A stretch of 64,000 nt of DNA, from positions 55,198,841 to 55,262,840 of the forward strand of contig OX419762.1 of NCBI GenBank assembly GCA_948567375.1. Reading direction: 5' to 3'. Positions 4,797 through 59,766 of this stretch are shown here, piece by piece. The notes beneath the pieces are model-generated. The model had not been told where the DNA came from. It searched no databases and saw nothing but the letters and a program-made list of their open reading frames with translations. The translations under genes were made by a program, and so were the position numbers. Source of the DNA: Lunularia cruciata. Lineage: Eukaryota > Streptophyta > Marchantiopsida > Lunulariales > Lunulariaceae. Each line of letters begins with the position of its first letter. Position 1 is the stretch's first letter.

Positions 4797-5665
4797 TGGT
4801 TGAGGTACATGAAGCAGTACAAAGAAACACGGGAGCTTAAGAACAAGTTCACCGGAGAAGAGCTCACAGAGAAGGAATATGGCAAAGAGTGGAGAACTAT
4901 AACGGATAAATTGAATGGAATGTGTACGTGTTTTGCAAAAATGGAAGTCATGTTTAAGAACAGAGCAAACATTAGTCCACTTCTATGGTAATTCTAGGAG
5001 ATATAAATCCCAAATCAAGCCTAATTGGCGAGGAGGAGGTCCATGAAAGTGCATAGGAGTGATCTCAGTTCCCATCTCCTCCAGAGGTGGTGCATGAGGA
5101 CTTGGGCCCCTGCTTTGTCCCAAACATCCAAGGGGTGGAAAGTATACTACTGAGTGTATGCATGGACAATGGAGTTGTATCACCCAAGGATGTGTTACCA
5201 TTTTGTTGCACCAATCAAGAACTCACCTTTTGTTGCACCACCTCCTTTAAATCCTATAGTGCATGGATCCGAGTGTGCTTTCCTTGACCAAGAAGTGGAA
5301 TGTGACTCAAAGAGGAGAAAAGCTAGAATATCAGCCAATAAGGTATCAAAGTTGTCACCTAGTTTATCATTGTCTCATGATTTAGCAAAAATTACCATGT
5401 TGAAGGCAAATATTATAGAGTCTAGTGAGAGGTTAAGACTAGCTTAACTAGAAGCCACAAACATGAGAAAAAGAGAGAAAAAAATGATGAAAATGGAAGC
5501 TGAGCGGGTTAGATTAGAGACAAAGAAAATGAAAGTTGAAATTGAGAAGAAATTGAATGTAGATAAAATGAAAGGTATGGAAAACAAACACAAATTTAAG
5601 GAGAAAAGTTTGGAGTCAAAGCACACTCATGAAATCAAAATGAGTCTCATACCAGCTGGAAAATC
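4797..5665 (+). pseudogene. Myb/SANT-like plus coiled-coil protein, 5' part, split by the DNMT retrotransposon
   Basis: The region starting at 4,800 encodes a Lys/Glu-rich segment with KEYGKEWRTITDKLNG and KNRANISP, which resembles the trihelix/Myb-SANT accessory proteins of plants and Harbinger transposons. A frame shared by 5,154-5,444 and 5,448-5,665 follows, broken by a TAA at 5,445. Its end is a strong coiled coil of Glu/Lys/Met heptads (about 5,463-5,640). The frame runs to the target duplication AATC at 5,662-5,665 and continues at 15,489. It was probably already decayed when hit, because stops interrupt both halves of the 5' part. The exact family is uncertain. Confidence 0.55.
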
Positions 5666-5771
5666 TGTTGTGCGTATATACATCGCTACACAACATACAT
5701 CGCTGTCAACATCATACACTATAGAAGCACAACTCACACATAAGTCATACATAGACTCTAAAGTGCCACAA
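5666..5771 (-). repeat. Split direct repeat B2 (106 bp, element end)
   Basis: The 106 bp are nearly identical to 6,232-6,337 (B1). On the plus strand B2 begins TGTTGTGCG at the target duplication and ends GTGCCACAA where repeat A2 starts. It is the outer end of the element on the coding strand's 3' side. No copy lies next to A1 at the other end of the element. Confidence 0.85.
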
Positions 5772-6229
5772 TGATGTAATCAGATTGCTTACACTCTCAA
5801 CTCAACTCAACTCAACTCAGATTAGTACTTGATCTGTCACTCTATCAACTGCCAACAACTTGGCACTGGTTACAGTCAAGCCACACCCACTCAAGCATAG
5901 AGAATCCAAGTGACGCTCGCCGGCCTCTGTCCACCATAGCCAGGAACTCGAAGGCTCAACATCAGAGAAGTGAGCTCTCTGGAGCTCACTTCAAAACTAT
6001 ACCCCCTGGACTCGAGCTAGCACTGGAACCCTAATGGTCCCGCTGACGGCACACTCAACGGTGCGAACGGTGCAAAGTGACGGTGGGCCCCACCGTGAAG
6101 TTAGTACCCCGAACACCAAATCAAACTGTCGGAAAGTAGTCCCTAAGAAACTACTAGAATAACTCTAACTACTATCATTGGAACTCCAATGTCCGAGCAG
6201 CTAGATGTGGAACTACAAATGGCATGATA
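5772..6229 (-). repeat. Split direct repeat A2 (458 bp)
   Basis: Matches 15,041-15,488 (A1) over its full length with scattered substitutions and one 10-bp difference in a CAACT-type run near its plus-strand start. On the coding strand it begins TATCATGCC, where A1 has TGTCACGCC (two C/T-type transitions), and ends in TACATCA. Confidence 0.85.
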
Positions 6230-6235
6230 GCTGTC
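6226..6235. promoter_or_regulatory. Palindromic A2/B1 junction (inferred GACAGCTGTC)
   Basis: The present sequence is GATAGCTGTC. Comparison with A1, which ends in GTGACA on the plus strand, suggests an ancestral perfect palindrome GACAGCTGTC. The outer ends of the insertion correspond to cutting this palindrome on both sides of its central GC. I infer that this is the integrase-processing or circle-junction site. Confidence 0.5.
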
Positions 6236-6337
6236 GTGCGTATATACATCGCTACACAACATACATCACTGTCAAGATCATACACTATAGAAGCACAACT
6301 CACACATAAGTCATACATAGACTCTAAAGTGCCACAA
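6232..6337 (-). repeat. Split direct repeat B1 (106 bp)
   Basis: Near-identical to B2 at 5,666-5,771. On the coding strand it begins TTGTGGCACTTTAG directly after the polypurine tract and ends CGCACGACA before the GC spacer and A2. B1 plus A2 together (565 bp including the spacer) have the position and TG...CA limits expected of an LTR unit defined by polypurine tract and primer site. Confidence 0.85.
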
Positions 6338-6348
6338 TCGCCCCCCTA
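6338..6348 (-). promoter_or_regulatory. Polypurine tract
   Basis: On the coding strand the sequence AGGGGGGCGA lies immediately before B1. A purine run at this place primes plus-strand cDNA synthesis in LTR retrotransposons, so it defines the start of the repeat unit as B1, not A2. Confidence 0.65.
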
Positions 6349-6505
6349 GCTGGCGGTTAGGTCCCTCTAACCCCAGATAGCCATCTACTCTAAGTATATG
6401 GTATACCCTCTAATGGGCAAAGATCAGGAGGCCAGGTGCTATGGAGCCCCATCGTTAGTCGCCTGTCTGCAATCTATACCATATAAAGAATGAACTAGCT
6501 ATAGG

Positions 6506-6850
6506 TCAAGTACATCTAGGACATAACCACTGTCCTTGAGGAACCACCGTGAGGGGAGGAGTCATACATGCCATATGCCATCCTCTCGAACAGCTATCAC
6601 ACACTAACATAGTAGCAGCTCCACCAGAAGAGCCACATAACATACACCTCAAGCCTGCACGTACAAGTGCCAAGCTTGGGTCCATAGTACCATCAATGTT
6701 TGGAAGGTGGCATGGCGCACAATTGCGCACATGATCCTTCCAAACAACACCATCACGTCCTTCTAACACAAGGACTCCAGATGACAAAACCTCGCGCACT
6801 CTCAAGATAGTGCGGCCTATAGAAACATCAAGTGTCGTTGGTGTTGTCTG
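6506..6850 (-). CDS. C-terminal tail with PHD finger of the retrotransposon integrase
   Basis: The polyprotein ends with a clear PHD zinc finger of C4HC3 type at about 6,512-6,646: CMLC, then CDSC-SRGWH-MAC, then the conserved Trp and CPRC. PHD fingers of this kind usually bind the histone H3 tail and sense Lys4 methylation. It follows a GPY/F-like segment (VREVLSSGVLVLEG, then VVWKDHVRNC) at the integrase C-terminus, the place where chromoviruses carry a chromodomain. By analogy it may steer integration to chromatin with a given H3 state. All eight zinc ligands are present. The only nearby break is a TAG at 6,851-6,853 at a predicted Gln codon. Confidence 0.85.
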   Translation of the reverse strand, partial: QTTPTTLDVSIGRTILRVREVLSSGVLVLEGRDGVVWKDHVRNCAPCHLPNIDGTMDPSLALVRAGLRCMLCGSSGGAATMLVCDSCSRGWHMACMTPPLTVVPQGQWLCPRCT

Positions 6851-8179
6851 CTATAGATATACATAGTCGCCTGGATGAAATCGATGGATCGAGGGTCTAT
6901 AACCTCCTCCTCGAATGGTAGCATAGCGTAAAGTATCTCTATGCTGAGCAATCGCCAAGTTCTCAAAGGCCATCGGCATCACTCTCCGAAAGATCTTTGC
7001 CCGCTGAGAACATGCGCTCATCCATCCATCGGGGTCATCCAAGTCCAAAACTATAGTAGCATCTCGACAAATGGCTGCAGGTAAATTTGGATCTCGTCCA
7101 TAGAGTAGAAAGTATGGAGAGAAGGATGCTAAGGAGGCTTGCCGGCTGAACCGATAGCCCATGGCCAACCAAGGTAACTGGAGATCCCAATCTCCCAAGT
7201 GGCCTCTCTACAAACCATACTTTCGCAATCCTCTCTTCACCGTCTGAACCACTCTCTCTGCTAATCCATCTGCCTCAGGGTGATCTCGGGATGTAGTACG
7301 ATAATCAATCAAAGCCTTGTCACACAAGACCTGAAACTCCCCCAAGAACTCTGTACCCTAATCAGTCAAAACCTCAGCTGGTGCACCAAAATGACTAAGA
7401 ACTCGATCTAGGAACGAGTAAGCTGTCCCTTCACTAGACTTGTCAAGAAGTGCCACCAACTCAATCCACTTGGAGAAGTGCTTCACCATCACCAAAACAT
7501 ACCGATGATGTCTCACAGTCAGCGGTAAAGGTCCGCTGAAGTCCAAACTCCAACGGTAACCCAATCCCATGATAGATAATGGGTGTAACTGTGGCATAGG
7601 AGCATTGAATGATGCTCTAACTCGGTCACAAACCACACATCTGGCAACAAACTATTGTACCTCGGTCTACATACCGCGCCATCAATAATGACTTTGGAGT
7701 AAGCTATATGTACGCTTTACTCCAAAATGTCCTAGCTCCTCATGAGCATGACGGACCAACTGTGGTCTCTGTGATGGAAGTGGTACTACTCGCACTCTAC
7801 CATCCTCCCATACACGCAAAAGGTGTCTACCCTCCAATCTGAACCGTCTGGCTCGCTGAAGAACACAGTCTCTCTCCTTGGCCCCAACTGTGCCACCCAC
7901 AACACCAGTGCAAAGATAGTCCATCACTAAGACATCATCATGAATGTCTCGCTGAACTGTACCAATACCTTCACTCTCTGGATCTGTGACCTCAATAACT
8001 CCTCCTATATGCGCTGAGAAAGATACCACCAAAGTCTCTGCAAATATACACAGAAAGGCCGATGCATGCCAACCTGGCACCATCTCCTCATCTGTCTCAC
8101 CATGCCAACGTGCTCCGGTCTGATCCTGCTGGCTGGGACATGGGTTTCTACTCAACCCATCTGCATCACGGTTCACCAC
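6851..8179 (-). pseudogene. Integrase of the DNMT gypsy element (stops at TAG/TGA)
   Basis: Zinc-binding HHCC module: VRHAHEELGHFG (about 7,700-7,760), then the CVVC pair near 7,635. The catalytic core has the first Asp in RWSLDFSGPL (about 7,540), the second in EVLTD followed by a stop where Gln of DQGTEF is expected (7,358-7,360), and the Glu in ADGLAERVVQTVKRG. The domain joins cDNA to chromosomal DNA. It shares one frame with the PHD tail. In-frame TAG codons at 7,358, 7,208 and 6,851, plus TGA and TAG codons between 7,636 and 7,682, break it. No tyrosine recombinase is encoded, which matters because the termini are of split-repeat type. Confidence 0.85.
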
Positions 8180-8750
8180 TCCAAGTCTGTGAACAATCGT
8201 GAAATCATACTCTTGTAAAATTAGAGCCTATCGTGCAAGCTTCCCTGAAAGCTTGTTGGACTCCATCAACCACTTCAGCGGCTGATGATCAGTGATGAGA
8301 GTGAAGGGGTTACCAAATAGGTAACATCGAAAATGTGCTATTGCCTAAATTGTTGCCAAGCACTCTCCCTCATATGAACTATACTTTGCCTCCGCTGAAT
8401 TTTTGGAGCAACTAGCATAGGCCACCACAAACTCCTTCTCCTCATCATCATGCTGGGTGAGCACCGCTCCAAGCCCCAACATACTCCAATCAGTGTGAAC
8501 CTGAAATGGTCGTCCCCTAATCGGTCTCCTCAAAATAGGAGCAGATGTCAACCTCTCCTTGAGCTCTACAAAAGCTCTCTCCTGCTCATCTCCCCAACAC
8601 CACTCCTGTGTAAGCTTGGTCAGCTTTGTCAAGGCCTTGGCAATGGCACTAAATCCTCTAACATAGCGGCGATAGAAGTTTGCCAACCCAAGGAATGCTC
8701 GCACTCTGCTCGCATCCGTAGGCCGAGGAATACGTGCAATAGCCTCCACC
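8180..8750 (-). pseudogene. RNase H domain of the DNMT gypsy element
   Basis: Follows the RT in the same frame. VHTDWSMLGLGAVLTQ carries the first acidic residue, YSSYEGECLATI the Glu-containing helix, and LITDHQPLKWL the TDH motif typical of gypsy RNase H. The domain degrades the RNA strand of the replication intermediate. Two stops, TAG at 8,345-8,347 and another near 8,231, stand where Trp is expected (AIAHFRCYLFG and LAR-ALILQEYDF contexts), consistent with TGG to TAG changes. Confidence 0.8.
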
Positions 8751-9618
8751 TTGGTCTGCTGGACACCAAGTCCTCCGGGGTAGATAGTGTGACCCAAATA
8801 CTCAACTTGCTCGTGGAAGAACCTACACTTCCCAGGATGTAGTTTGAGTCCATGAGATCTCAACCTCTCAAACACCTCCAACAACTGTCTCTCATGCTCC
8901 TCCACACTAGTGCTATAGACCAAAATGTCATCAATATAACATCGAGCAAAATCCAATCCAGCTAGGATCCTATCCATGACCCTCTGGAACTCAGCAGAAG
9001 CATTCTTCAACCCAAATGGTAAGAACCTCCACTGATATAACACATCCTTGCCGTGAGGATCAATAGCCCAAAATTTGTCTTGGACTTATCCTCCTCCTTG
9101 ATCGGCAACTAATGATATCCCGCTCAAAGATCCAAAGTACTGAAGACCTTTGCATGCCCAATCGCATCAAAAATCTCCTCCGGTGTAGGCATGGTATACC
9201 GATCAGCCCTGGTCTGTTGGTTGATAGGACAGTAATCTCCACACATCCGCCTATCTGTATAGTTGCCATGCATATCCTTCTTGGTTGGCATCACTGTCGC
9301 TGATGCATACTCTCCATGTGAAATCTCCACCAAACCAGCCTCAAAAAGGTCATTGCTCCGGCTTTGAATCAATGTCCTCTCCATATCACTATATTGATAA
9401 GGACGTCGGAAAACTGGTGTGTTGCTAGTCAGCTCAATCCATATACCAGGTCCTTTTAGAGCACCCAAATCCTTCATACTGAAGGCAAAACAACTCGTGT
9501 GACTCCTCAAGAACCTCCAAACCCTCCGTCTTTCCTCTCCAATAAGCTTGGGTCCAAGATCTGGCTCCAAAGTATCCTCTATAATTGTAGTAGGAGTGGA
9601 CGACGTACTGACTGGCTG
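8751..9618 (-). pseudogene. Reverse transcriptase of the DNMT gypsy element
   Basis: The RT begins after a spacer near 9,570 and shows YQYSDMERTLIQ, then GDYCPIN-QQTRADRY, KVFSTLDL, and after a frameshift at about 9,070 YQWRFLPFGLKNASAEFQ and the catalytic CYIDDILVYS (8,927-8,944). The thumb has FLGLANFYRRYVRGFS. The order and motifs are those of Ty3/gypsy RT. A TGA at 9,124 (Arg of LDLRAGYH expected) and a TAG at 9,109 (Gln of GYHQLPI expected) fall in conserved positions. With these codons and the one-base frameshift the copy cannot make RT. Confidence 0.85.
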
Positions 9619-9621
9619 CTA

Positions 9622-9960
9622 CACTGGGCCCTTGGGAGCAATAGTGTCATGCTCCCGACCACTAGAGGTCCCAACCTTTGTGCGAAAAACTCCCTCCACT
9701 CTGGCTGCAAGCTCCACACGTCCTCTACCTGCATCCCATGTGGACCAAGGGTGTAATCCAAGTAGCCCACGCTCACCTGGATGGACTCCAAGTAGACCAC
9801 TCTCCCTAGTAGCTACTAGATGTGTCCCAAGAATACCATGTCCACTCGGTCCATCGCCTCCAGCATGTGCCTGAATCGTCTTGATAGGCACAGGGCTCAC
9901 AAGTGTCCGAGTGGTGATGCCTATCAAGCGCATCCTACGCTGCTCTGCCAAGCCAAGGCT
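9622..9960 (-). pseudogene. Linker between methyltransferase and reverse transcriptase
   Basis: About 110 codons in the pol frame, rich in Gly, His, Thr and Leu, with a short internal repeat of GLLGVHPGE/GLLGLHPW type. I recognise no domain. It ends at a TAG (9,619-9,621). It may be a flexible joint or contain a protease cleavage site that releases the methyltransferase. Confidence 0.5.
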
Positions 9961-11013
9961 CACAATCCAGGTCAAACAGTTCAGGTCCATAGCCTGACCT
10001 AACACCTAACGCCTAGATGCCTTTGACATTACTGGAACAGCGGTAATACCGGTGCAAAAACCCATCGCCCGCTCTCTCTCATCAGCATTGGGCTCCACCA
10101 ACTGTTGTAACTATGAGTCCCAAACAAGTCCATGTCCTCCCTCTTGAAAAGCATGAGAGCCTGGGAAACTCATGAGTGTGGGAAATGCAGCTCTAGGCTG
10201 TCCAACTAGGTTCACCACTGCCATAGGTGACCTATCAGCCACTACCACTATCTGAGATTGATGTCCAGCATCCAAGATATCATCAACAAGAATGTGGTCT
10301 AGTCGTTGAATCCCATCATAACTACGATGTAGAACCTCTCTGGGTAAGAGGTTCGTCCACCAAAGACGAAGACGATGAGCCCGTGATCCCACTCTGGCTG
10401 CATCTAACAATACAGCAGGTCCCATCCAAGAATGGACCTGATGTGTACTCGCCACCACTCTAGTGCGAGAATCACCCATCAATGGAACATTCTCCAAAAG
10501 GTAAGCTGGAGAAACAAACTGATGAACCTGGAGATGTTGTAGTATCCGTAACATCTCCCAAAACACACCAGAACGAGAATCTTGAAGACCCAAACCGCGG
10601 CCCGCACGTGTATGTCCCTAACATGGCCATCCAAAAATCACCAAGTGAATAGGCCCATGTCTCTCTAGGTCATGCGCCCCCAGTAAGGAAATGTCTCCTG
10701 GTAAGGCCTTCTGGTAACCTCTGACTACTGACATCGCTAATAACTCCGGATACCGATAAGCCAAGTGTGCCACATGATGTAGAGAGACTCGCCTAGCAGT
10801 CTCATCTCTCTCTACATACAAGTACCTCTGTACTCGTATACTCGCTTGTAACACCGCAGCTAGTCCGGTGCTGATCCCACCAAACAACTCCAATAGACAT
10901 ATCCCCTCTACTGGATACTGCCAAGCAATGAGTGTGGTATCCAGAGGTGTCAAAGCAATCGCCTCTGGAGGCTCATCCTCACACTCATCCCCTGATGGTA
11001 CAAAGGCTCCACT
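9961..11013 (-). pseudogene. DNMT3/DRM-like C5-cytosine DNA methyltransferase domain inside the Pol polyprotein
   Basis: Methyltransferase motifs appear in canonical order in the pol frame. Motif I, LLELFGGISTGLAA, about 10,855-10,896, binds AdoMet. Motif II-like YLYVERD follows. Motif IV, HLVIFGWPC (ends at 10,621), holds the catalytic Cys, with a TAG at 10,618 at the expected Gln. Then come GLQDSRSGVFWEMLRIL, motif VI LLENVPL (Glu-Asn-Val at 10,486-10,494), motif VIII-like GSRAHRLRLWWTNLLP (about 10,340-10,389), ADERERAMGF, and the motif X-like end ASRR-VLGQAMDLN (about 9,980-10,015). WWTNLLP and the last motif recall the DNMT3 signatures FWGNLPG and LLGRSWSVP, so I place it near DNMT3/DRM, not DNMT1 or CMT. 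It would methylate DNA or cDNA de novo. Three or four TAG/TGA codons break this copy. Confidence 0.85.
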
Positions 11014-12348
11014 TCAAGCCTACTGCACCAACTGATCTGCATGTTGCTGCAATGCCTCCTCTGAACTCCACAATGGAACATCCAAGGTGGATGGAACAAT
11101 CCCACTCGTACTCCAAAGCTGAGTGATCTCCTCTGGTACTGCAGTATCCTCTGCATGGGCGTTCCCCTCCAACAAGTCACCAGGCCAAGTAACTGCACCG
11201 CTGAAAGCTAAAACTAATGCTGCCATGGTCCCGGACTGTAGTGAGCCAAGACAGCCACTACTAAAGTGTACTGGTAGGTGACATACCCGTCCCTCACCAG
11301 ACTGCCAACCAGGTCTATAAGAGGTTGTCTCCTCCCAATAGTCAATGCTGAAACCCATAGGGTATAACACTGCTCCCCCAACTAGCACATCATATGACTC
11401 AGCTATTGTCACAATAGCTTGAGCTCTCACCATCGAGCTATCAGTCGGATGACCAGGCTGAATCTGGACAACAAGCTCTCCACGTGTGATGTACTGTGTC
11501 GAACCACCACCAAGAGATGTCTGGATCTAAAATGGACACCTCTCCACATCGGTCTTCCGTAACTCCAGACCGACAACTACAGCCTTCCCCAACATAGAGA
11601 GCTACGCACCAGAGTCTAACAAGACTCTCTGTGGTGTATAGACCTTCCCTGAAGGTCCCACCAAACAAAAGATCCCCCTCTGGTTATCCAATAGGACAAC
11701 ACCAGGTGTAAACCGCGCTCTCTCAAAGGCCGGTCTAGTTGGCAACTCCTCCAGTCTAGCCGCTGCTGCCTGCCATAAACCACTGGTCGCTGAACGGATC
11801 CCATGCTCCTCAACCAAGTCAGCTCCACTACCAACCACCTCTGCTCTAGTAGTAGGAACTGCACCATCCCTACTCTCACACAACATGGCAGCCAACCGGA
11901 ACATTGGAGTTGGGTCAACTCCCAATGTAAACATGTCACTGGCTGAAAATAAAGGATGCCGCATAATCAGCTGAGCCGCCCCCAACATCATGCTAGACTC
12001 AGTCTGTGTAGTAGCAGGTGGCTGACTAGCAGGTACTCCAACAGGTACTCCATCAACACCTACCACACCTGCAATGGGACGTCTAGGAACCATAGATGTT
12101 GTCTGTAATGCCTCAGATAGCATGAAAGACTGGGGAAGTCTGACCTGTCTCCCAACCTCTCCTCTTTGTGGGTCCAACTCCACTGATGCTCCTCTAGGCT
12201 CTGGAGCACGTACTGCACTCCTAGTCATTGCTGCAGATGCATCCACCTGGCAAATGAAGTCCAAAGCATCTCTATCACCAGCATATGAGGTGGAAGCCTC
12301 AGCACCCGAATCTGATCTCCTCTGAGCAATAGCCATACTAGCCAATCT
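11014..12348 (-). pseudogene. Protease region of the DNMT gypsy element
   Basis: The pol frame from 12,348 holds an Ala/Ser/Arg-rich linker and then the retropepsin active site VLLDSGA at about 11,605-11,622, followed by a TAG where Gln is expected. Downstream, YDVLVGGAVLYPMGF has the place of the conserved hydrophobic-Gly motif of retroviral proteases, and DYWEETTSYRPGW continues towards the methyltransferase. The protease would process the polyprotein. TAGs at 11,602, 11,527 and 11,020 and a TGA at 11,014 interrupt the frame. It is joined in frame to both Gag and the methyltransferase. Confidence 0.75.
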
Positions 12349-13620
12349 CTACTCCAACTGCTCAATCCGAGTAGCCATAGCTGTGTCAGAAGTAAGGGCA
12401 GGAACTGCACCCCTACTAGGTGTAGATCCTCTACCACCTCGTCCTCCATGAACTGGAGCTCCTCTACTACCTGCCATAGCAGCCCTACCGCTCCGTAACT
12501 CCGGGTGTAGGTCGAAACACCGGTCACTAGTATGACCAAATCTATGGCAGTGCTCACACTGCCTCTGTGCTGGCTGTGATGCACCAAAGGTATCAGGTCC
12601 GCTGCCCTGAGTACACTCTCTCCTATGGTGAGGTCCACCACAAGTCCAACAAGCAACACCACCACTCACTGGCTGCTGCTAACCCAAAAATGAGGGTAAG
12701 GGTCTAACTCCACTAGGCCCTCCACTCGCTCCATAGGATCTGGGCTGTCCACCTTGTCCTCAAAAACCAATTGGGCGTGGTGCACTCTGCTGCACTCTAG
12801 AAGAAGTCACAACCGTGGATGAGGTCTCTCTACCAAATCCAGCTGTCACCACTCTCTCTTCCACCATGTTGAGCTCAATACACTCAACCAAACCAAAGAC
12901 TACTGCCAAAGTGGGCGAAGTAGCATGCAACAACGTAACATCACGAACTCTACGTCGCAACTCCCTGTCCAGTAACTCCCTGAGTGAAACTCATCAGCCG
13001 CCTCATGCGAGTGTATGCCTCGCGTAGGCTCTCTCCAGCCTTCTGCTGGAACTCCTGCAAGCTCCTCAGCTTGTCAGTCCGCACTCCCTGGTAGTTCTGC
13101 CTCAACCATAGGAAGAACTCAACCATGGGGTTAAACCCCGGTAGCACACCACCTCTTGCAGCGGTACCTCCACTCGTAGTAGCACTATCTCCAGCTAGTG
13201 CACCTCCACTAGCTCTACCAACACTACTCGAGCTAGAACTCATGGGTACAGCCAATCTACTCCTGGCCACCGAGCCTGAAGTAATGGAGACATAGTGTGG
13301 AGACCAATACTGTCTCCATAACTCAATCTCCTCCAAATGAGCTCTCCTGAACTCATGGTAGTCATCCATCGGCGGACCCTCCAGATGCTAAAACAACCCC
13401 TTCCATGCCATGAAGGGTGTGAACAAAGTCGGGTTCCGCATCTGCTGCAGATCACACCAACTATCAAACTCTTGGATGAAGTCATCCAACTCAATGGTAC
13501 CCACTGTACCAGAGTAACGCCTAGGGCCTTTGGAAGCCCCATAAATCTCGTCCTTGTCCTACAACAACGGTGTGGACACACCAAGTGCAATCTCAACTGA
13601 ATCAGCTCCTGTGTCAAACT
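12349..13620 (-). pseudogene. Gag with capsid and two zinc knuckles, DNMT gypsy element
   Basis: The N-terminal part (about 13,620-13,390) has GTVGTIELDDFIQEFDSW and NPTLFTPFMAWKGLF, followed by a TAG at 13,388 and HLEGPPMDDYHEFRRAH. The retrotransposon Gag core is visible in LRSLQEFQQKAGESLREAYT at about 13,010-13,080. After a frameshift near 12,955 come two zinc knuckles: CWTCGGPHHRREC (CX2CX3HX4C; about 12,613-12,651) and CEHCHRFGHTSDRC (CX2CX4HX4C; 12,517-12,558). Gag forms the particle and binds RNA. The knuckle region shares a frame with pol, separated only by a TAG at 12,349-12,351. Confidence 0.8.
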
Positions 13621-13807
13621 TCAACTCAGAATCAATCTCCTCCCTCACTGGGACCTGAGATACAGGCTGATACCGAGCACCACTCCGAGTAAACCTACTG
13701 CATACTGCAGGGCTAACTCCTCTGGAATCTCCAAAGAACTTCGTCGTGACCACGTAACTGCAATAGCAAACCTGAACTACCAACTGCAACCGCAAGTGCC
13801 ACACCAA

Positions 13808-15040
13808 GTGCTAACACCACCACCCACTAATGTAACTTTAACCGAGATAACAACACTAGGGGAAGGGCAACCTGTAACCTACCATCATAACACGCACTCT
13901 CATGGTCTGCAGGTCATCACTTCCTGCCTCACCGGAGAGAAACAAAGGTAGTCTGACTGGTCATCACTCCAGCCTCGCCATCGAGAGCACACCAGAGCAC
14001 CAACGCTCAAAAGTCAGTGCACCTCACACAAATGTGGTGCACAAATAGGAACCAGAGAATGGAGGGGATCCAATTACAAGAAATCTAAACAAAAACCCTC
14101 CATCTCATAACACAACACGGGACTGACTCTGCAACCATTTGGCATTTGACATAAGAGAGTGTTTGTATCTAAGTCCTAAGCTACTAGGATCACCAAGAAT
14201 GGGATCAAACTGCCTCTCCTAGCCAAAGCTACATGTGTAAAGATAACAGTGGCGCAGTCACTAGGACAACAAGTGAGGGTGGACCAGTTGGCTAGGGCAC
14301 TAGTCTAGGAACAAGAGATCTAGGGGTCAAACCCTATTGCGCACAATCTAGCAAGAAAGGCAGATTTTGCCAACCAATGACCAAGATCTACTCTAAACTA
14401 GCTAGCCTCACGCCACCAAGCTGGCTTGCTGGCCCTTCTAGGCCTTCGTAGCCTCTCAAAGCCCACAGCCCTATGCCTCAAAGCCTCTAAATGCCAAAAT
14501 TCAACCAAATGAGGCCTTTCTTGTTGCCACTTTGAAACCTCCTTCAAAATTGGCAAAAGTTCTCCAAATCTGCAAAAGTTCTCCAAACTAGCAAAACTCC
14601 TCCAAATCTGGCCCAAAATCTGACGTAAAATCTGACGTAAACCCTAAAGATGGCTGTCCGCCAAATCCCCCGCTAACTTTCCACTCGAGCCAAATTGACA
14701 AAACGGGTTTTTCCAAATTACAATTTCATGAGAAGAGCTTCCCAACTCTACCTTCAATTTCACTTTATGAGCCCAACTCGCAGCAAATTGGTCCTGCCTT
14801 CACCTCCTGAGCTCAAAATCACAACACTGCTCAAAAATTGCTCCTTCTTTGCTCAAAATTTGGCCAGCGCTTCCGCACACCGTCTGCCTAACTGCCAAAT
14901 CTAAATCACTTGAACGAGCTTCTGCACACTAGGGAAACACAGAACTTGAATCGAGCTACCACGATCCACCGAGCTTGGAGATACCACCAACACTCAACGT
15001 TCCTGCACTCGATTTCCCCCTGATTTCACTTTCACTTCTC
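13808..15040 (-). other. Leader of the DNMT gypsy element
   Basis: About 1.2 kb between repeat A1 and gag without a credible coding frame. Directly after A1 the coding strand reads CATCAGAGAAG. A standard tRNA-iMet primer site (TGGTATCAGAGC) is not intact, although ATCAGAG is present. The part at 13,860-14,090 is homologous to 30,600-30,800, and 14,250-14,345 has a tRNA-like look. Confidence 0.6.
14250..14345 (+). repeat. Possible tRNA-like/SINE-like segment in the leader
   Basis: CCAGTTGGCTAGGGCACTAG resembles a pol III box A context and GGGGTCAAACCCT a box B, about 40 bases apart. This could be the tRNA-related head of a SINE or a decayed tRNA gene. No poly-A tail or duplication is visible. 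Confidence 0.25.
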
Positions 15041-15488
15041 TGATGTAATCAGATTGCTTACACTCTCAACTCAACTCAGATCAGTACTTGATCTGTCACT
15101 CTATAAACTGCCAACAACTGGGCACTGATTACAGTCAAGCCACACCCACTCAAGCATAGAGAATCCAAGTGACGCTTGCCGGCCTCTGTCCACCATAGCC
15201 AGGAACTCGAAGGCTCAACATCAGAGAAGTGAGCTCTCTAGAGCTCACTTTGAAACTAAACCCCCTGGACTCGAGCTAGCACTGGAACCCTAACGGTCCC
15301 GCTGACGGCACACTCCACGGTGTGAACGGTGCAAAGTGACGGTGGGCCCCACCGTGAAGTTAGTACCCCGAACACCAAATCAGACTGTCGGAAAGTAGTC
15401 CTTGAGAAACTACTAGAATAACTCTAACTACTATCACTAGAGCTCCAGTGTCCAAGCAGCTAGATGCGGAACTACAAATGGCGTGACA
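15041..15488 (-). repeat. Split direct repeat A1 (448 bp, 5' end of the element)
   Basis: Homologous to 5,772-6,229. On the coding strand it starts TGTCACGCC at the target duplication and ends TACATCA before the leader. It should contain the promoter if transcription starts as in other LTR elements. The 106-bp B sequence is absent on both of its sides. Confidence 0.85.
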
Positions 15489-15580
15489 AATCTCCCAAGG
15501 AAATTTGTCAATATTTCAAAGTGCTCACTCAAATTCATCATCCTACTCCAAATCCATCATACTCTAGTGATAGTGAATAG
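15489..15580 (+). pseudogene. 3' end of the split coiled-coil gene
   Basis: After the AATC duplication the frame continues as SPKEICQYFKVLTQIHHP and ends Ser-Asp-Ser-Glu with TAG at 15,578-15,580. It is in phase with the frame that stops at the insertion point at 5,665, so both parts belong to one former gene. Confidence 0.6.
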
Positions 15581-19511: not shown

Positions 19512-19664
19512 GGAAGGGGTTATGAGGGAGCCAATAGAGGGAAAGAGGGAGGTAGTGAAACCCAAGTGGCTCCTTATACAAAAAGAGGTAAGGGGAAAGC
19601 ATCTATATATGTGGTTGAGAGCAAGTATGAGAAAGGAGAGTGCTCAAACTCCTAGAGTCTTAAT

Positions 19665-20460
19665 TTGGAGCTTTTGGTACAAGAGAAGAAGAGAGCTCGT
19701 TTTGCAGAGGATGTGCACTCTTCTCAAGGATTTACTCCTAGCAAGGATACTCCTATTTCTACTAGGAGAACTTGCACCTCACCACCATCAACAACAAAGA
19801 CTCCAAGAAAGAAGTTGGGGATGGAGGACTTCTTGATATCAAAGCAACAATGTAACTACAATGTCTTGGAAGATGTTGGTAGTCACAACGCTAATATCAC
19901 AATGGGCCAACTGATTGCTTTGAATCCTACTTTGAGAAAGGAACTTAGAGGTGGTTTGAGTTCTACAAGGAGCAAGAGGAAGAATAAGGCAAAAGCTCCA
20001 ATATCAATGGGGGTGGTGGATGCCAAGCCAGCACCATGGGAGACTTGTGAATATGCCTCCAAGATTGATGTGAGAGTAAATGGTCAAAACATCAAGGATG
20101 CATTGGTTGATGGAGGATCAACAGTGAATGCCATGTCAGAAAGGTTAATGAAGAAGTTGGATCTGGTACCCTCTAGACCTTCAACATTTGTGGTAAGCAT
20201 GGCATACAAACAACAAGTTTGACCCATATGGATGATGGATAAAGTTGAAGTTTCAGTTATGGGAGTTCAAAATCTCATGACTTTCTAAGTCTTGAAGGAT
20301 TCAAGCTATGATTTACTTCTTGGGAAGCCATGGTTGCAAGCAGCACGCACAACTGATCAATGGCACAAAGGGTACTTGAGGATTGGGCCATCAAACCAAA
20401 GAGTCACAATTCTTGTGACTAACACCACCAACACTTCACATTTAGATACACTATCTTCTA
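19665..20460 (+). pseudogene. Gypsy 2 protease
   Basis: The active-site region reads ALVDGGSTVNAMS, a DGG in place of the more common DSG/DTG, followed by YDLLLGKPWL, the usual second protease motif. Stops occur at 20,221 (TGA) and 20,287 (TAA). The domain would cut the polyprotein. Confidence 0.65.
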
Positions 20461-20498
20461 ATAATTAGGAATCAGATTTAGAAGAAGGAGCTTCAAGT

Positions 20499-21600
20499 GT
20501 GGACACAAGCATGGAAGAGGATACTTCTACGGAGGAGGCTGAATCTGAATTTGATTCAGATGTGTATCCTTTGTGTGCTATGGATTTTGCACCTAAGCTA
20601 GAGGTTTTGAAGGACCCAAATAAATCACCATTGACACTTGAGGAGATAGAGAGGAGGTTACCTACCCTCAAGTATGGCCTAAATGTTACCAAGGAGGAGA
20701 AGGTGAGATTTGAGGAGATTTTCCACAAATTCATCCATGTTTTTGCTTTCAGTTACAAGGATTTGAAAGAAGTCACCTTGGAGGAGCACAAGATAGAGAT
20801 AGGGTCACATGCAAGACCAATCCGCCAAAAGCAATGTCGCATTAGCCCACCAATATCTTTGGTTGTGAAGGAGTAGATTGATAAGCTCAAGGAGGCAAAA
20901 TTTATCTTTGAGGTGTAGAATTCAGAATGGGTGTCTCCAATTGTCATTGTGAAGAAAAAGAATGGCAAGCTTTGGGTATTTGTGGATTACAAGAAGCTCA
21001 ATGCTATTACCAAGAAGGACTACTACCCATTGCCATTCATTGATGAGATCTTGGAGGAGGTTGCAGGTCATGAGAGGTACAGTTTTGGAGATGGTTATAG
21101 TGGATATAACCAAATCAAGATTGCACTAGAGCATCAACAACTCACCGCATTCACCACACCTTGGGGAACTTATGCTTTCAAGGTCATTCCTTTTGGGCTT
21201 TGCAATGCTCCAGCCACATTTGAACAGTACATGAACAAGGTATTTGAACCTTTCATTGGGAAATTTATGAGAGACTTCATTGATGACTTGTGTCTATGGG
21301 AGCAAGGAAGAGCACTTTGAGCACCTAATCAAGGTCTTGCAATGCTTGGATGAGGCAAATGCATCACTCAACCTAGAGAAGTGCATTTTTGGATGTGAAG
21401 AAGGTCTACTTTTGGGGCACATCATCTCCAAGGATGGAATAGCAGTTGATCCTAAGAAGGTGAGGAAAATCTCAAACCTTCCATCTCCTTCAAGCTTGAC
21501 AAAGTTATGTCAATTCTTGGGGATGGTTGGATACTATAGGAGGTTCATATTCTCATTTTCCAAAAATGCTTATGCATTGACCATCTACATGAACAAGGGT
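20499..21600 (+). pseudogene. Gypsy 2 reverse transcriptase
   Basis: After an acidic linker come HKIEIGSHARPIRQKQ, VSPIVIVKKKNGK, VDYKKLNAITKKDYYPLPF, FGDGYSGYNQI, PFGLCNAPATFEQYMN and the catalytic FIDDL. A one-base frameshift next to FIDDL (about 21,285) and two TAGs at about 20,874 and 20,916 break the frame. The thumb continues with FLGMVGYYRRF in the shifted frame. Confidence 0.8.
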
Positions 21601-22131
21601 GTAGATTACATGGTAATTTTGGAGGACAAGGAGGCTCTCAAAGCTTTTGAGGAGCTCAAGCAATCCCTTGTTGTAGCTCCAATTCTTGCTAAACCTGATT
21701 GGAGTAAGCCTTTTGTCCTTTACATTGATGATTCCAATGTTGCTATTGGATGCACTCTTAGTCAATTAGACCAAGATGGGCATGATCATCCAATAGCTTA
21801 TGTTAGTAGGCAGATGGTTTCAATAGAAAAGAACTACTCTGTCACGGAGAGAGAAGGGTTGGCAATGATCTTTGGTCTCAAGAAGTTTAGACACTACTTA
21901 ATTGGAGAGAAAGCCACCATTTTCATGGATCACAAGGCCTTGAAGTTCATCTTCAACAAGCCTAATGTTGAAGGAAGACTAGCAATGTGGATGATACTCT
22001 TGTCTGAGTATGACTACCCATTGAGGATAGGCCAGGAAAGAAACATGCAAATGCTGATTTGTTATCTAGGGCCTATGATCATGATGGAGATGAGCCAATG
22101 GATGATTCCTTCCTGGATGAGGAGCTCATGA
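21601..22131 (+). pseudogene. Gypsy 2 RNase H
   Basis: FVLYIDDSNVAIGCTLSQ, then NYSVTEREGLAMIFGLKKF and FMDHKALKFIF give the acidic residues and MDH motif of gypsy RNase H. A frameshift at about 22,040 separates it from the integrase. Confidence 0.75.
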
Positions 22132-36840: not shown

Positions 36841-38420
36841 CTACAATGTTTGTGTTGCACAACATGTTCCAAAAGGGAGACCTCTTGGTTGCATCATTAA
36901 GGGATTATACACTACAAAATCTTGCATAAAAATTTCAACAAGAGCTTGTTTCATCATGTGTTGTTGATGGGGAACAATATTTTGTGCTTTTGTTGAATAC
37001 ACTCCATAATCTCCGCAAATGCTTTCATTGGTTGATTGGTTGTTGAAGCCACCATAGCTTGTTGAAATGCAAAATAGACAAAGACACATTACGATCCCTC
37101 TCCTTCATTTGTTTGATCTGATGTGAACAACGAATGCACATTGTTGACTAGAACACATTATTGCTTTGATCATCCACTTACAAAGAAAGTGAATTGTGGT
37201 ATTGTTTGAGAGCGTCCCTCATTGCAAAGATTGAGATCTTCTTCATCATATCTTTCCACAAAGGTTCCTTCCATGGGATAGAAGAGATAGAGTTTGTTGG
37301 TAATTGTTGGTTCGGTAAAGTTGGAGAGCTATTGGTTGCAAGAAACTTCAAGCAACTCATAAACACCAAGTAAATCTCCAGTTGACCTCTAGATCCAACA
37401 CTTCAACATGGCATGTGCACCTTCCACTTGAGAAGTTGATGTATGCCCAAGTGCATAACATTTCAAAGCCATGCGACAACAAACTTCTTGCTATGGCACA
37501 ACAATGTTGTTGCAAGATAATGGAAAACCGCACTAGGAGTATTGCCATAAGTTGATGTACATTTTTGTGATACTCTTCCTCACTTAAAGAAGCAATAACG
37601 CCTTGCCATAATTGGATGAAGCTAGTCCAAGAATCTTCTGAGTCAAATGTTGCACGCTGATTGGCAAGTATGTTCTTGTTAATGTGCCACACACAAAGCA
37701 TGTTGATTGAACCTAGGAAAACTACTGATATTGCATTCATTAGTGCAAGTTCATGGTCAGTTACAAAGACAAAGTGACAAACTTGCATCCATTCCAAGCT
37801 TTTTGCCAAAGGTAGTATGTAGCTTTCTCATTGCTCAAATGTAATCCTCAAAATTTTCTTAACACATAAAACAATAGAGCAGGATGGACGTTTAATTTGT
37901 TGCTGAAACCCCAATTCCATGCAACAAGTGCATTCTGTCTTGATTTGTTTTATAAGTGGAATCCAAAGGCCAAATCTTGTTTGTACAGAATGTCTATGTG
38001 ATTGCCTTGACAGATTTTGGGACAATGAACATGTACATGTGCGTCAAATTTCCACCAGCATTGTGTTGAAGGTTGTGGTTAACATCATGCTCAATGAGTG
38101 CATCTAACAAGGCCTCTATAGCATATCATCCATCGAGTGCTTTCCTTTTGGAGCAAGTTTCATGTTGTAGATATCTTGCTTTGTTGCATGATAGATGTGT
38201 TGGTTTCACGGAGATTACCAAGAACTAGATGCGGTGCAATGCAAACTATGCTCAATTGCTGTACAATTTGCAACTCTGCAGCTGAGAGTACTCTGCACTT
38301 GGATATGCAGCAATGCCATCCACTGGCTCATGATTATGATTTGTGTTGATGACATCTATCATCCAAGTTCCATTTTTTCCTTGTGAATGACCACTTGGAA
38401 AGAACAGAGTATGCAAACAT
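36841..38420 (-). pseudogene. FAR1-type MULE transposase relic 1
   Basis: The minus strand encodes a broken transposase. Near 38,360-38,400 lies a FAR1-like piece (SFQVVIHKEKM, then DVINTNHNHEPV). The DDE region at 37,357-37,809 has FVTDHELALMNAISVVF and LCVWHINKNILANQ, the second catalytic Asp and the conserved Cys-x-Trp-His of MULE transposases. Many stops break it. It is related to, but not the same as, the copy at 44.2-46.4 kb, which has SDVDKELAIAI and LLCVWHIKKNV at the same sites. Confidence 0.7.
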
Positions 38421-49697: not shown

Positions 49698-50765
49698 TTA
49701 GAGTAGGCCAATTAGTAATGGTCTTGATTTCTCCTCTTCCATCTTGATCCCCTCTGATGAGATCTTGTGACCCAAGAAGGTAACTTCCTTTTTCCAAAAT
49801 GCACACTTTGACTTCTTGCAGTAAAATTTCCATTGTTGTAGTCGTCTTAGAACTTCTCGCATGTGATTCACGTGTTCTGCCTCTATCTTGCTATAGATTA
49901 AGATATCATCCAAGAACACTACCACATAGTAATCCAATAGTCCATCTAACACCCAATGCATCTGATTCATGAAGACCATTGGAGCATTAGTAAGACCAAA
50001 AGGTAGAACTCTCCACTCAAAATGTCCATACCTTATGCGAAAGGCAGTCTTTTGCACATCCTCCCTATCAATGGGGATTTGCCAATAGCCATTGTGAAGA
50101 TCTAATTTTGAAAAGTATTGTGCTCCACTCAATTGATCAAGCAAGTCATCAATCAGAGGTAAGAGATATGCGTTCTTCACTGTTTGCTTAATGAGCCCAT
50201 GATAATCAATACAAAAACAAAGTCCTCCATCCTTCTTTGGAACCAATAGTACCGGTGCTCCCAAAGGAGAGGTACTATGTTGTATGAAGTCCTTCTCCAA
50301 TAGCTCCATAAGTGTTGTTTGCAACTCCTCCAACTCCTTTGGTGAGAGCCTATAGATTGGTCTACTCATTAGAGTACTCCTTGGCAATAACTCAATCTTG
50401 AAGGGCATACCACGATCGGAGTGTAATCCCTTTGGTAGATCATTCGGAAACACGTCCACAAACTCCTGAACTATCTGATTAACCCTTGCTTGATGAGGCT
50501 CTTGGCTCTTCTCAGATTGTCCTTGTGCAATTTGCTTCATCCACACCGCAAAAACAGACCTATCTTCCTCCAAAGCTCGCTCTATGGCTACTTCACTAAC
50601 AAACTTCCCATCTAGGGACTCAACTCTCTTCAAAGCTTGCTCCATAGTTGCCTTCCTAGCAAACCTCCCATCTTGGAGCTCCTCTCCCTTCAAGGCATGC
50701 TCCATGGCTACCTTCTCAACCAACTTCCCATCTTGGGACTGACTATTCTTAAGTGTCTTACTCAT
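49698..50765 (-). CDS. Gypsy 3 reverse transcriptase with N-terminal repeats
   Basis: A 355-residue open frame. Residues 1-65 contain three similar units of 20 residues with the pattern DGKxVxxxAxExALK (about 50,560-50,740), which is unusual for this place. Then come FVDVFPNDLPKGL, SRPIYRLSPKELEEL, APVLLVPKKDGG, CIDYHGLIKQTVKNAYLLP, FSKLDLHNGYWQI, RVLPFGLTNAPMVFMNQM and the catalytic VVVFLDDILIYS. The frame breaks after FLGHKISSEGI. It is the longest undisturbed part of this element. Confidence 0.8.
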   Translation of the reverse strand: MSKTLKNSQSQDGKLVEKVAMEHALKGEELQDGRFARKATMEQALKRVESLDGKFVSEVAIERALEEDRSVFAVWMKQIAQGQSEKSQEPHQARVNQIVQEFVDVFPNDLPKGLHSDRGMPFKIELLPRSTLMSRPIYRLSPKELEELQTTLMELLEKDFIQHSTSPLGAPVLLVPKKDGGLCFCIDYHGLIKQTVKNAYLLPLIDDLLDQLSGAQYFSKLDLHNGYWQIPIDREDVQKTAFRIRYGHFEWRVLPFGLTNAPMVFMNQMHWVLDGLLDYYVVVFLDDILIYSKIEAEHVNHMREVLRRLQQWKFYCKKSKCAFWKKEVTFLGHKISSEGIKMEEEKSRPLLIGLL

Positions 50766-50816
50766 AGGTGCTAGACAACCTAATCAAAAATTCTTACTTT
50801 GGTGTTGTACTTGAAT

Positions 50817-53669: not shown

Positions 53670-56600
53670 TGTTAATTCATGAGTTTTCATTCTTTAAGTT
53701 CTTTAATAGGTTTGTACTATTAATTCTTGAAAAAACTGACCATCTTTGGTGTTTTAATTACTGCTATCCTAAATCAGTCTAAGTTGTATGAAGAATGGAG
53801 ACCTCATTCATTCCGTGTGATATCCCATTGATAAGATTACCAATAAAATTTTATTTCTATTTATAAAAAACCACTATGTTTACTCTATTTCTTCTTTCAC
53901 TTCTGACCGTGCACGTCATAACCATGAGGGACATTAAGTACTTTTTGGCCCTAGAGACACACAAGTACAAATTAGAAATTGTAATGAAAGGTGAATGTGA
54001 TGATACTTATGCTATCTTTGAATTTTGAAATTTCCTTTGAGGTCTAGAAACATTAAAAACTGGAGTATAAATATATTCATCCATCAAAGATTTAGATATA
54101 TATGTAGTTGACTATAATTAAATTTTATTCTACATAATATGCATAATTATGATAGTATTGTTCCATCCAAACATCTACTTCCGTATATCAACATACGCCA
54201 AGATACTTAAATATAATAAAAGTAATCTAAAATAGAAGAGGTTGTATTGATAACGTGAAATCTATATATGCTAGTTTGATACACATGATGCATAATTTTC
54301 CTAAATAATTTATTATCCTACACAATGAACTTAAATTCTTCAACAAAATAATTAAGTAAGTATAGTCCTTCCTCCATACTTTCCTCGTCTTCATCCACCT
54401 AGGAGTACTAAACTTGAACATTTATGAAAATTATAATTTGTGCTACCATAGTAGTTGGGAACTAACTACAAATCACAAATTCAAACTATAATACATACAA
54501 TAACAATATGCATCTTACCATTTGGACTTGGTTCCTTGTAGAACCTTGTGGTTTATGGTGACTAAAGATAATTCTTTTTCTATCAAAAGCCATTGCTAGA
54601 TAAAGATACCAAATTGCTTGTCTAACTCCATAATTCCGCAATTCATATGGTGCTCAATGGAGCAAAGTAAAGCAATTCCATTATCAAAAAATGATTTTAC
54701 ACACATTCCTTTGCACTACTAGTAGATCAGAGCATGAGATTTCTGTAATAGGAAATCTATCCAAAAATCACATCTGGATACTCTAACTTTAGAAAGACAA
54801 CAAAACACATTGTTGATACTTGATAGAACATCTACTTCATAGTATTAGAGTAAGAGGTAAAGTTAAGTATAGACCTTATTTCCTCTTGGTCTAGTAACCA
54901 ATCATGATGTACTTGTTGCAAGGTTGATCCTAGAACCACCAAAGCTAAACACTATGCTTATCTTTGTGAATACACTAAGTTAAGAAAGAAACCACCTTTA
55001 GAGAAAAAGAATATGCCATGAAGTTTGAACAAATAGCTTAATGTATCATATAGTTAAAAATTAGGCATTGGCTGAATAACCTTGTCTAAACTACCAAATT
55101 ATCCAAAAAATGGAAGATGAAAAACTTCCAATGGTCATACAATAATGATATGCATCCCACCATCTGGACTTTGTTCCTTGTAGAACATTGTGATTTGTGG
55201 TGATTAAAGATGATTCTTTCTCTATGAGAAGCCATTGCTGGATAAACACTAAATTTTTTGTCTAACTCCACAAATCTGCAATTCATTTTGAATCAATTGC
55301 AACAAAGTAAATTATTTCCACTATCAAAACAAAGATTTTACACCCATTCCTTTGAACTACTAGTACTTCAAAGCAAGGTAGTTTTTATATGCATCTATAA
55401 GAACCTATGTTATGAAGTTTAAAAAAATAAATTACCATTTCATATAATCAAGACCTATACATTAGTTATATTACCTCGTCTAAACTATGAGATTAATCAG
55501 AATACTAGAACATAGAAAACTTCCAATAGTGAAATATTATTACTTGCTTGAAGCTTGAAGCTTGATACCATATCAAACATTCTTCCTTTTTGAACTCATA
55601 GCTCTGAGTGCGCTTTCACTTCTTGAAAACGTAACCATTGTAAGGTTTGTAAATGATTAAAAATGTAGCCATAATAAGGTTTGTAAACTATGAGTGTTTA
55701 CTTACTTGAAGTTAGGAAATACCTCAACTTTTAACAAGCTGTCATGTTTGCAACAAAATAATCTATAGTTCCAACTCTAGATTGGTCAACCTCTTCTTTG
55801 GAGATGCCTTAAAACACACCTTCTGCATTTCTGTTGTTCCAAGCTCTTGTGTTTCACACCAAAGATCGGAGGTAAAGAGAAAAGGAACACCTACAAGAAT
55901 TGATTATACAATTAGTTCATCTACTTCTTCAAAAATAATTTTTTTCCTTAAGTGTTTCTTTAATACACTTGGGCTTTATTCTAATAAACTTCTCTATATC
56001 TTCATCCTCCTAGAAAATACCAAATATTTATTTATTTATTTATTAAATACACTAAAAGGATAAGAAACTATAACTTAACAACTTCTAAAAAAGACATATA
56101 AAGAATAAGTAATTTCTACTCCATGCAATGCAAAAGGTAGATTTGGATTGTTTCTTCTCTATCAAAAGTGATCAATAATTTATAGTGGTGTAAGATCATG
56201 ATGTGTAGAGAACTTTTTCCAAGGGAATATTAAATTGTAGGTGTGCAACATCATGAGTACAAGATCTTGTGGCATTTGCATCTCTCTATTTCTTGGTCCT
56301 TGAGCAACCTTGTCTTTTTTCACTTGTTAAGTCATTCTCTCATGTATTTATTGTCTACAAGACCTCTCATTATATATCTATTTTCAATGCAATCTTTTAA
56401 ATGTTATCATTAGTAATGATTTTTGTCTCCAAAGTTGGCTTGAACAAGGTACTTTTTAGAAGATGCATTTTCTTGTATCATTCCTCTACAAATTACTAGT
56501 GCTGCTAGTATTCATTATTTAAAATGTCTCATTTAGAGAAATTTTTAATTTGGCATTATTGTCTACCAATAAAATATGTGGATGGCTAAATTCATTCCCA

Positions 56601-57030
56601 TGTTGGTAAATTCACCCCTCACTTGCCATTTATGGCTGCAAGGCATGAAGGAAACATCCAAGGAGGATGAATTTAGCAATTCCCTATATAACTTCTATAT
56701 CATGTTGAACTTATCCAAGGATCAAGGCCTTATCTCATCTAGTTTTTTGGATGTCCTTGCCAAATACTGGTTTTATTGTTGTTTGTATAGCATCAGCTCA
56801 ACTCAAGGAGTTACCTCACCATGTACATATTCTTGCAAAAGGATAAAATAATTTACATGTTGAGCATGTCCATCTTTGGAAATCTACCTCACTTTGCTCC
56901 TTAGATATTCTTAGAGTAAATTTCTAGTGTTGTAGATGTATATCATTACCTCCGCTCAAACCACTCATATTTTCTTGGTTGCAACAATTTATATTCTTGT
57001 TGAGTTTATCGAAGGATTAATGCACTATCT

Positions 57031-57222
57031 TATCTAGCTTGTTAGATATCCTTGGCATATAACTTTTTAATTTTTTAATTGTATAGCATTACCCCAAGCT
57101 AAAGAATTACCTCACCAAATGCATAGTATCTAGCTTGTTAGATATCCTTGGCATATAACTTTTTAATTTTTTAATTGTATAGCATTACCCCAAGCTAAAG
57201 AATTACCTCACCAAATGCATAG
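57031..57222. repeat. Perfect 96-bp tandem duplication
   Basis: 57,031-57,126 and 57,127-57,222 are identical, starting TATCTAGCTTGTTAGATATC. Identity amid otherwise diverged repeats indicates a recent event. Confidence 0.9.
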
Positions 57223-58734: not shown

Positions 58735-58830
58735 ATATATATATAGATATATATATATATATATACTTATACTTATACTCAAAACATATATACTTATACT
58801 CAAAACATATATATATATATACTCAAAACA
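58735..58830. repeat. TA-rich and TACTCAAAACATATA repeat tract
   Basis: Short TA runs with three TACTCAAAACA-type units at about 58,776, 58,796 and 58,820. Confidence 0.75.
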
Positions 58831-59735: not shown

Positions 59736-59766
59736 AAGGGCGACCGCGTGGAAAACAGAAGGATGG
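59736..59766 (-). mobile_element. Very short LINE tail, copy 4
   Basis: GGGCGACCGCGTGG and CAGAAGGATGG match the extreme 3' end of the LINE family on the minus strand. Only about 31 bp. Confidence 0.55.

Follow-up and report, generated by a model that had tools for sequence, protein, structure and literature searches.

A Predicted DNMT3-Type Cytosine Methyltransferase in a High-Copy Ty3/Gypsy Retrotransposon of Lunularia cruciata

Introduction

Transposons normally suffer DNA methylation, and a locus of Lunularia cruciata raises the question of why one of them should carry a gene for making it. An earlier note, written from the letters alone, had read a C5-cytosine methyltransferase (MT) between the protease and the reverse transcriptase of a gypsy polyprotein. 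It is asked here whether such an enzyme is present, how it is likely to be expressed, where it came from, and what it might do for the element.

As the note had stated for charophytes, the kind of element is already known. Like the present element, KnitGypsy-Dnmt3 of Klebsormidium nitens is a Gypsy whose Pol includes a DNMT3-type MT with unpermuted motifs (de Mendoza et al. 2018, PMC5890265). Two dinoflagellate elements described in that paper, SymbioDIRS-Dnmt3 and SymbioLINE-Dnmt, also hold a DNMT within retrotransposon frames; the former, of DIRS type, has a tyrosine recombinase and the latter is a LINE (PMC5890265), whereas a DDE integrase and 4-bp target duplications are found here. Retrotransposon DNMT3s in streptophytes and dinoflagellates are mentioned elsewhere as previously reported (PMC12344493). 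Searches of freely available journal papers yielded no paper on DNMT Gypsies beyond Klebsormidium. What is added here is the spread of these elements, the two positions of their MT, a leaky stop, and permuted integration.

Results

The minus strand of the 64-kb window (the whole stretch of DNA analysed) holds one Ty3/Gypsy element at 5,666–15,488 (Table 1). Gag, protease (PR), reverse transcriptase (RT), RNase H and a DDE integrase (INT) follow one another in the Ty3/Gypsy order, Gag and PR being recognized by weak profile match and motif. The PHD finger finds its best matches among solved structures in CHD4, KMT2D and KDM5B; many plant Gypsies have a chromodomain in its place.

Table 1. Features of the element, in positions of the 64-kb window
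Feature	Position	Strand	Remark
4-bp target-site duplication, 3′ side of element	5662–5665		AATC on the plus strand; identical bases at 15,489–15,492
Repeat B2, 3′ terminal	5666–5771	−	
Five extra bases at A2/B2 junction	5772–5776	−	Same as the five after A1 (primer-binding side); also in copy L021
Repeat A2	5777–6229	−	
Repeat B1	6232–6337	−	Two bases between B1 and A2
Putative polypurine tract	6338–6346	−	Purine-rich, directly before B1; presumed role
PHD finger, C-terminus of ORF2	6512–6646	−	PF00628, 7.5e-12 in window
Integrase: H2C2 zinc finger and rve core	7279–7774	−	Interrupted by stops in window copy
RNase H	8209–8596	−	
Reverse transcriptase core	8783–9258	−	Broken in window copy
Conserved UAG between ORF1 and ORF2	9619–9621	−	Followed by CAG CCA, fitting CAR-YYA; 25 of 25 copies
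Predicted DNMT3-type C5-cytosine methyltransferase, motifs I–X unpermuted	9925–10950	−	Three premature stops in window copy
Aspartic protease region	11206–11688	−	LLDSGA motif and position; window piece has no Pfam match
Two CCHC-type zinc knuckles	12536–12651	−	Read from sequence
Gag region	12685–13564	−	Retrotrans_gag 7.9e-4, 20 bits, under cut-off of 24.1
Repeat A1, 5′ terminal	15046–15488	−	
4-bp target-site duplication, 5′ side	15489–15492		

The window copy is dead. Its ORF1 has 12 premature stops, seven of them between 12,348 and 9,622 and three within 9,961–11,013, and its ORF2 has ten; two 1-nt deletions and one 35-nt deletion all lie outside 12,348–9,124. The earlier statement that no frameshift occurs from 12,348 to 9,124 thus holds insofar as the only indel there is of 9 nt, but the frame is closed by stops. 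The element is an old insertion of a high-copy retrotransposon. Because the window piece is too damaged to give a clean profile match by itself, it was interpreted beside other copies from the same genome (565,766,749 bases in 74 contigs), of which L009–L028 were chosen mostly for long open frames and L029–L048 from stop-free matches, so that the sample is biased against decay. In copies L009 and L010 the first frame runs for 1,428 residues and comprises Gag, the two CCHC knuckles, the protease motif and the MT at residues 986–1,327; L013 and L014 have an uninterrupted second frame of 1,037 residues, comprising RT, RNase H, H2C2, rve and PHD.

MT motifs I, IV, VI, VIII and X do occur in order in one frame of the minus strand and align to DNMT3A at the places claimed, and the reading of a C5 methyltransferase set between the protease and RT domains of a Gypsy retrotransposon is borne out, the enzyme being DNMT3-like. 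The profile similarity on which the earlier note had made its claim depend was found in another genome copy, where Pfam DNA_methylase scores 1.9e-7 (31.2 bits, above the cut-off); on the broken pieces of the window the best E value is 0.012 (15.5 bits against a cut-off of 22, from one of three MT pieces). Against solved structures, a single MT sequence has DNMT3A as its top match (8e-12), and a nine-row MT profile ranks DNMT3A (1.7e-23) above DRM (1.2e-11) and M.HaeIII (3.7e-8), with M.HhaI (9.1e-8) and then DNMT2 (3.3e-5) further down. Among known enzymes the nearest are the DNMT3s of animals and bryophytes and plant DRM; the closest solved structures are DNMT3A/3B, followed by DRM. Scans for tRNA, Rfam and NCBIfam families gave nothing further on the MT (NCBIfam dcm, 1.3e-6, under its cut-off). 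Chance origin of the open frame is rejected, since the genome holds at least 118 near-identical matches to the MT (118 of 118 scored, from 13,753 first-look candidates), which cover 340–342 of its 342 residues at 96–100% identity. A DRM-type enzyme is likewise rejected: motif order is rearranged in plant DRM, including that of the host (L002), and is unrearranged in the element. Judged from its sequence, the MT is a C5-cytosine methyltransferase of DNMT3 type, for which DNA methylation is predicted. Host methyltransferase genes seen in translations are two intron-bearing DNMT3s (L001, L004), the rearranged DRM, and a CMT-like exon (L003).

The ranking of structures bears on the nature of the substrate. 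An MT made at the Gag level, as predicted below, would lie beside zinc knuckles and might act on RNA, namely the genomic RNA in the particle, instead of DNA, and RNA methylation was suggested for the LINE type by the 2018 authors (PMC5890265). The profile, however, matches DNMT3 (1.7e-23) far better than DNMT2, a tRNA enzyme (3.3e-5), and we regard an RNA target as quite improbable.

Conservation of the active site bears on a second alternative, in which the MT would be kept for nucleic-acid binding or particle structure and catalysis would not be needed. All 44 genome copies compared, that of the window included, retain both the catalytic Cys and the ENV Glu. Among relatives (98 rows: L009 and the 97 of 111 matches in which the MT alignment is longer than 280 residues), the Cys is present in 97 of the 97 rows with a residue at that place, the Glu in all 98, and the Arg residues of motif VIII are nearly invariant. 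In favor of a noncatalytic role, motif IV of relative P0030 reads G-W-E-C-Q, with Glu for the Pro beside the catalytic Cys. This Glu occurs in 48 of 74 rows of the group whose MT lies between RNase H and INT (RNaseH-MT-INT) and in 3 of 24 rows of the PR-MT-RT group, whereas Pro is found in 102 of the 106 DNMT3-like rows in which the motif was found (120 taken from the matches listed). Near invariance of the catalytic residues argues against such a role, which we consider improbable.

The MT and the RT do not share one open frame, as the earlier reading of a single PR-DNMT-RT polyprotein would have it: a conserved UAG parts them, ending the Gag-PR-MT frame, in 25 of the 25 copies that hold the junction. 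The bases that follow are CAGCCA in 21 copies, CAGCTA in three and CAGTCA in one, all of which fit CAR-YYA, a context essential for readthrough of UAG in TMV RNA (PMC2754532). To judge by these bases, the UAG stands in a leaky-stop context. Ribosomes would mostly halt there, giving MT at the Gag level and RT and INT at a lower level. The split occurs in other genomes too, since 15 of 24 PR-MT proteins of relatives that lack RT end 70–139 residues past the MT. It is not universal, however: in 14 relatives a single predicted protein contains both MT and RT, in some cases perhaps because the gene model includes introns.

ORF2 might instead be expressed by re-initiation or from a spliced RNA. The RT proteins of relatives begin 55–213 residues ahead of RT in most of the rows listed, and other plant Gypsies have introns between pro and RT. 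ORF2 is nonetheless in frame with ORF1, and the UAG and CAR-YYA are kept in every copy although the context bases vary within that rule; re-initiation or splicing is therefore rather unlikely.

Relatives of the element are widespread. Searching with the MT yielded 111 proteins from 8,000 scored candidates, among them proteins of Marchantia polymorpha (61–72% identity), Sphagnum fallax, Cymbomonas, Chlamydomonas eustigma, Haematococcus and Monoraphidium, together with many from metagenomes; a search with ORF2 gave 205, and the 120 listed include Klebsormidium, Riccia, Calypogeia, Volvox and Tetrabaena. In the combined set of 226 proteins (two of them from this element), the MT lies after PR or before RT in 40 and after RT/RNase H in 82; its position is indeterminable in 29, and 75, many of them ORF2-like pieces, show no MT. 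These counts indicate that the MT occupies one of two places, PR-MT-RT or RNaseH-MT-INT. They do not fit the earlier view that PR-DNMT-RT is a rare arrangement, with the proviso that the proteins were selected for their resemblance to this element, so that the shares are not natural frequencies. One relative, P0192, has PR, RT, RNase H and INT and no detected MT, and loss of the MT thus seems possible.

K. nitens protein P0210 (KFL_009030040), which we infer to be KnitGypsy-Dnmt3, matches this element in its PR-MT-RT-RH-INT order. Their MTs share about 40% identity, and motif VI of P0210 reads EHV. The Lunularia element differs in the conserved UAG that ends Gag-PR-MT and in the PHD finger that ends ORF2, a comparison in which P0210 is partial.

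The descent of the MT was examined in trees of retrotransposon MTs from green-lineage and metagenomic sources together with DNMT3-like proteins. FastTree on 165 rows sets 126 retrotransposon MTs together on their own side of a branch from 39 DNMT3-like rows (support 100), and joins the 99 rows of the RNaseH-MT-INT group (support 97). This tree was built without nine named Marchantia rows and without MT matches shorter than 231 residues, whereby Sphagnum row P0028 was dropped, and it used 38 of the 120 DNMT3-like matches listed. A tree of 59 chosen rows under a better model, from which the long-branch rows P0109, P0110, P0087 and P0215 were left out, recovers the same split (100), with support of 93 for one position group and 87 for the other. 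The groups are sisters in the 59-row tree, whereas the PR-MT-RT group is paraphyletic at the base of the 165-row tree.

The RT tree supports the RNaseH-MT-INT group at 99; the remaining rows do not fall cleanly on one side, and the outgroup there consists of two rows, both long and partial. In the integrase tree the split between the position groups has support 95. In both trees, eight rows labelled as group A and the ORF2 of L014 hold no MT and took their labels from placement in an earlier tree; P0192 and P0154, labelled group B, likewise lack an MT.

On the 2018 reading, the Klebsormidium MT was an "independent acquisition in the K. nitens lineage" (PMC5890265), and one may imagine recent, separate captures from a resident DNMT3 gene in the present host line and in Klebsormidium. 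The host has such genes, L001 and L004, with introns, and DNMT3 is the closest known family. Against this, AU tests reject joining four plant DNMT3 rows to this element and Marchantia (p = 2.5e-6), and reject joining these four to the Klebsormidium MT (p = 2.1e-4) or to the RNaseH-MT-INT clade (p = 3.4e-5). The two groups seen with the MT also appear in the trees of RT and integrase. Separate captures from plant DNMT3 are rejected by these tests, and recent capture is a highly improbable account. A topology with Klebsormidium outside all other retrotransposon MTs is not rejected (p = 0.37), so that the Klebsormidium MT may also belong there; and because the outgroup was collected with the host's DNMT3, a closer source may lie outside the sample.

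The trees support one old MT lineage common to the Gypsy elements of the green lineage, within which the MT changed its place in the polyprotein once, and a single old capture followed by one move is the simplest reading. The presence of relatives in liverworts, a moss and green algae suggests that the MT has been retained since that capture and not regained in each host. The element could have spread by movement between hosts.

Variation among genome copies gives a mixed picture of selection. Outside CG and CHG sites, MT variants found in three or more copies comprise 7 nonsynonymous and 16 synonymous changes, against 65 nonsynonymous, three stops and 39 synonymous among singletons (Fisher p = 0.005). 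RT variants treated in the same way shift similarly (1 and 6, against 40 plus five stops and 18; p = 0.005), and the stretch from knuckles to protease gives no signal of constraint (p = 0.65). The 44 MT columns invariant across nine relatives make up 13% of sites and hold 12 of the 165 amino-acid variants. The earlier note had looked to purifying selection as a check on the MT. The shift with copy sharing agrees with it, whereas MT variants found in exactly two copies (35 nonsynonymous and four stops to 11 synonymous) are unconstrained and count against the explanation preferred below. These counts make a moderate case for purifying selection on the MT within this genome; the sequence case across species is stronger.

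A strand-specific mutation mark of self-methylation was sought in the genome copies and not found. Singleton C-to-T changes per thousand site-copies number 11–12 at CG, 10–12 at CHG and 3.6 at CHH, both strands alike. With CG and CHG sites decaying at equal rates on either strand, the copies appear to be methylated in plant fashion. Such methylation needs no enzyme of the element, and host methylation alone would give the decay pattern.

The ends of the element are unusual. Copies read A-coding-B-A-B, an order published for KnitGypsy-Dnmt3, with repeats as in DIRS elements (Fig. 4 legend, PMC5890265), and SymbioDIRS-Dnmt3 also has a DIRS-like repeat order (PMC5890265); the target duplications and the reading of the junctions come from the present analysis. 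The A2/B2 junction is direct in 17 of 21 copies. Five additional bases, which look like imprecise joining of ends, stand at this junction in the window copy and in L021; L017 and L025 have a single B and no A2. The A1 and A2 repeats are 93.0% identical in the window copy, and the range is 89.9–99.7% in the 15 others for which most of both repeats could be compared.

Duplications of 4 bp flank TGTC...GACA ends in 15 of 18 complete copies, the ends being circularly permuted; L013, L020 and L021 have no duplication, and 2 of 20 copies are incomplete. DIRS retrotransposons are not known to make a target-site duplication. With 4-bp duplications present, and with ORF2 matching rve and H2C2 and no phage-integrase family among the Pfam matches, assignment to the DIRS elements is rejected.

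Two identical LTRs at the ends, as in an ordinary Gypsy, were not found; one end is A and the other is B-A-B. Because a purine tract stands before B1, ordinary reverse transcription would yield LTRs composed of B plus A. A palindrome, GACA-GC-TGTC, lies between B1 and A2, with small variants in a few copies. Joining of the cDNA ends would give a two-LTR circle, and cutting at the palindrome would give the permuted genomic form. Alternatively, template switching may be the source of the repeat form. We put forward tentatively, as possible though doubtful, a scheme in which the element transposes through a two-LTR circle that its own integrase opens at the LTR palindrome, the circle having been methylated before integration by MT supplied at the Gag level. 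If this were true, a circle that is usually a dead end would be a working intermediate of a Gypsy life cycle, and a DNA-marking enzyme would have been carried for its sake since early green-plant evolution.

Discussion

The preferred explanation, to which we give about an even chance, joins an ORF1 that encodes Gag-PR-MT, a leaky UAG, an ORF2 that encodes RT-RNase H-integrase-PHD, and one old MT lineage whose enzyme acts on the element's own DNA. The protease would free the MT inside the particle. The MT would then methylate de novo its own cDNA, the circular form of that cDNA, or the new insertion, and the CG and CHG maintenance enzymes of the host would keep the mark. De novo methylation of cDNA or of the new insertion is the likely role; the earlier note had suggested that the enzyme could hide the element from host silencing, tune that silencing, or protect cDNA. 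Self-methylation of cDNA had already been proposed in 2018 (PMC5890265), and retro-DNMT3s of the DIRS type methylate CG de novo in yeast (PMC5890265). KnitGypsy-Dnmt3 gave no methylation in the same test, a result that its authors called inconclusive (PMC5890265). This yeast result, the host-like C-to-T decay, and the MT-less P0192 were counted against the preferred explanation.

Alternatively, the MT could work in trans on the chromatin of the host, interfering with silencing or placing a burden on host targets, from which the element would gain. High copy number is in keeping with such action, as is a PHD finger that resembles readers of histone tails and might read them itself. Set against these, the methylome of Klebsormidium is described as plant-like (PMC5890265), and we consider action in trans very unlikely.

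Methylation in cis remains the preferred role, and here a large group of transposons retains a gene for the very modification that they normally undergo. Should a single gain have been followed by retention from chlorophytes to bryophytes, the MT would be more than a chance peculiarity of one alga, and what it is used for would become a general question, testable in Marchantia, the home of MTs 61–72% identical to this one. The two MT positions, the leaky stop and the permuted ends allow concrete predictions of dosage, of what the particle contains and of the DNA intermediate.

Elsewhere in the window, other Gypsy remnants (protease, RNase H and RT) lie at 19,656–22,128 and 49,704–50,783, and a MULE transposase-like fragment (2e-5, under the curated cut-off) lies at 37,363–37,827. 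G+C content is near 0.30 at 54,000–60,000, below that of the rest of the window, and a perfect 96-bp tandem pair occupies 57,031–57,223.
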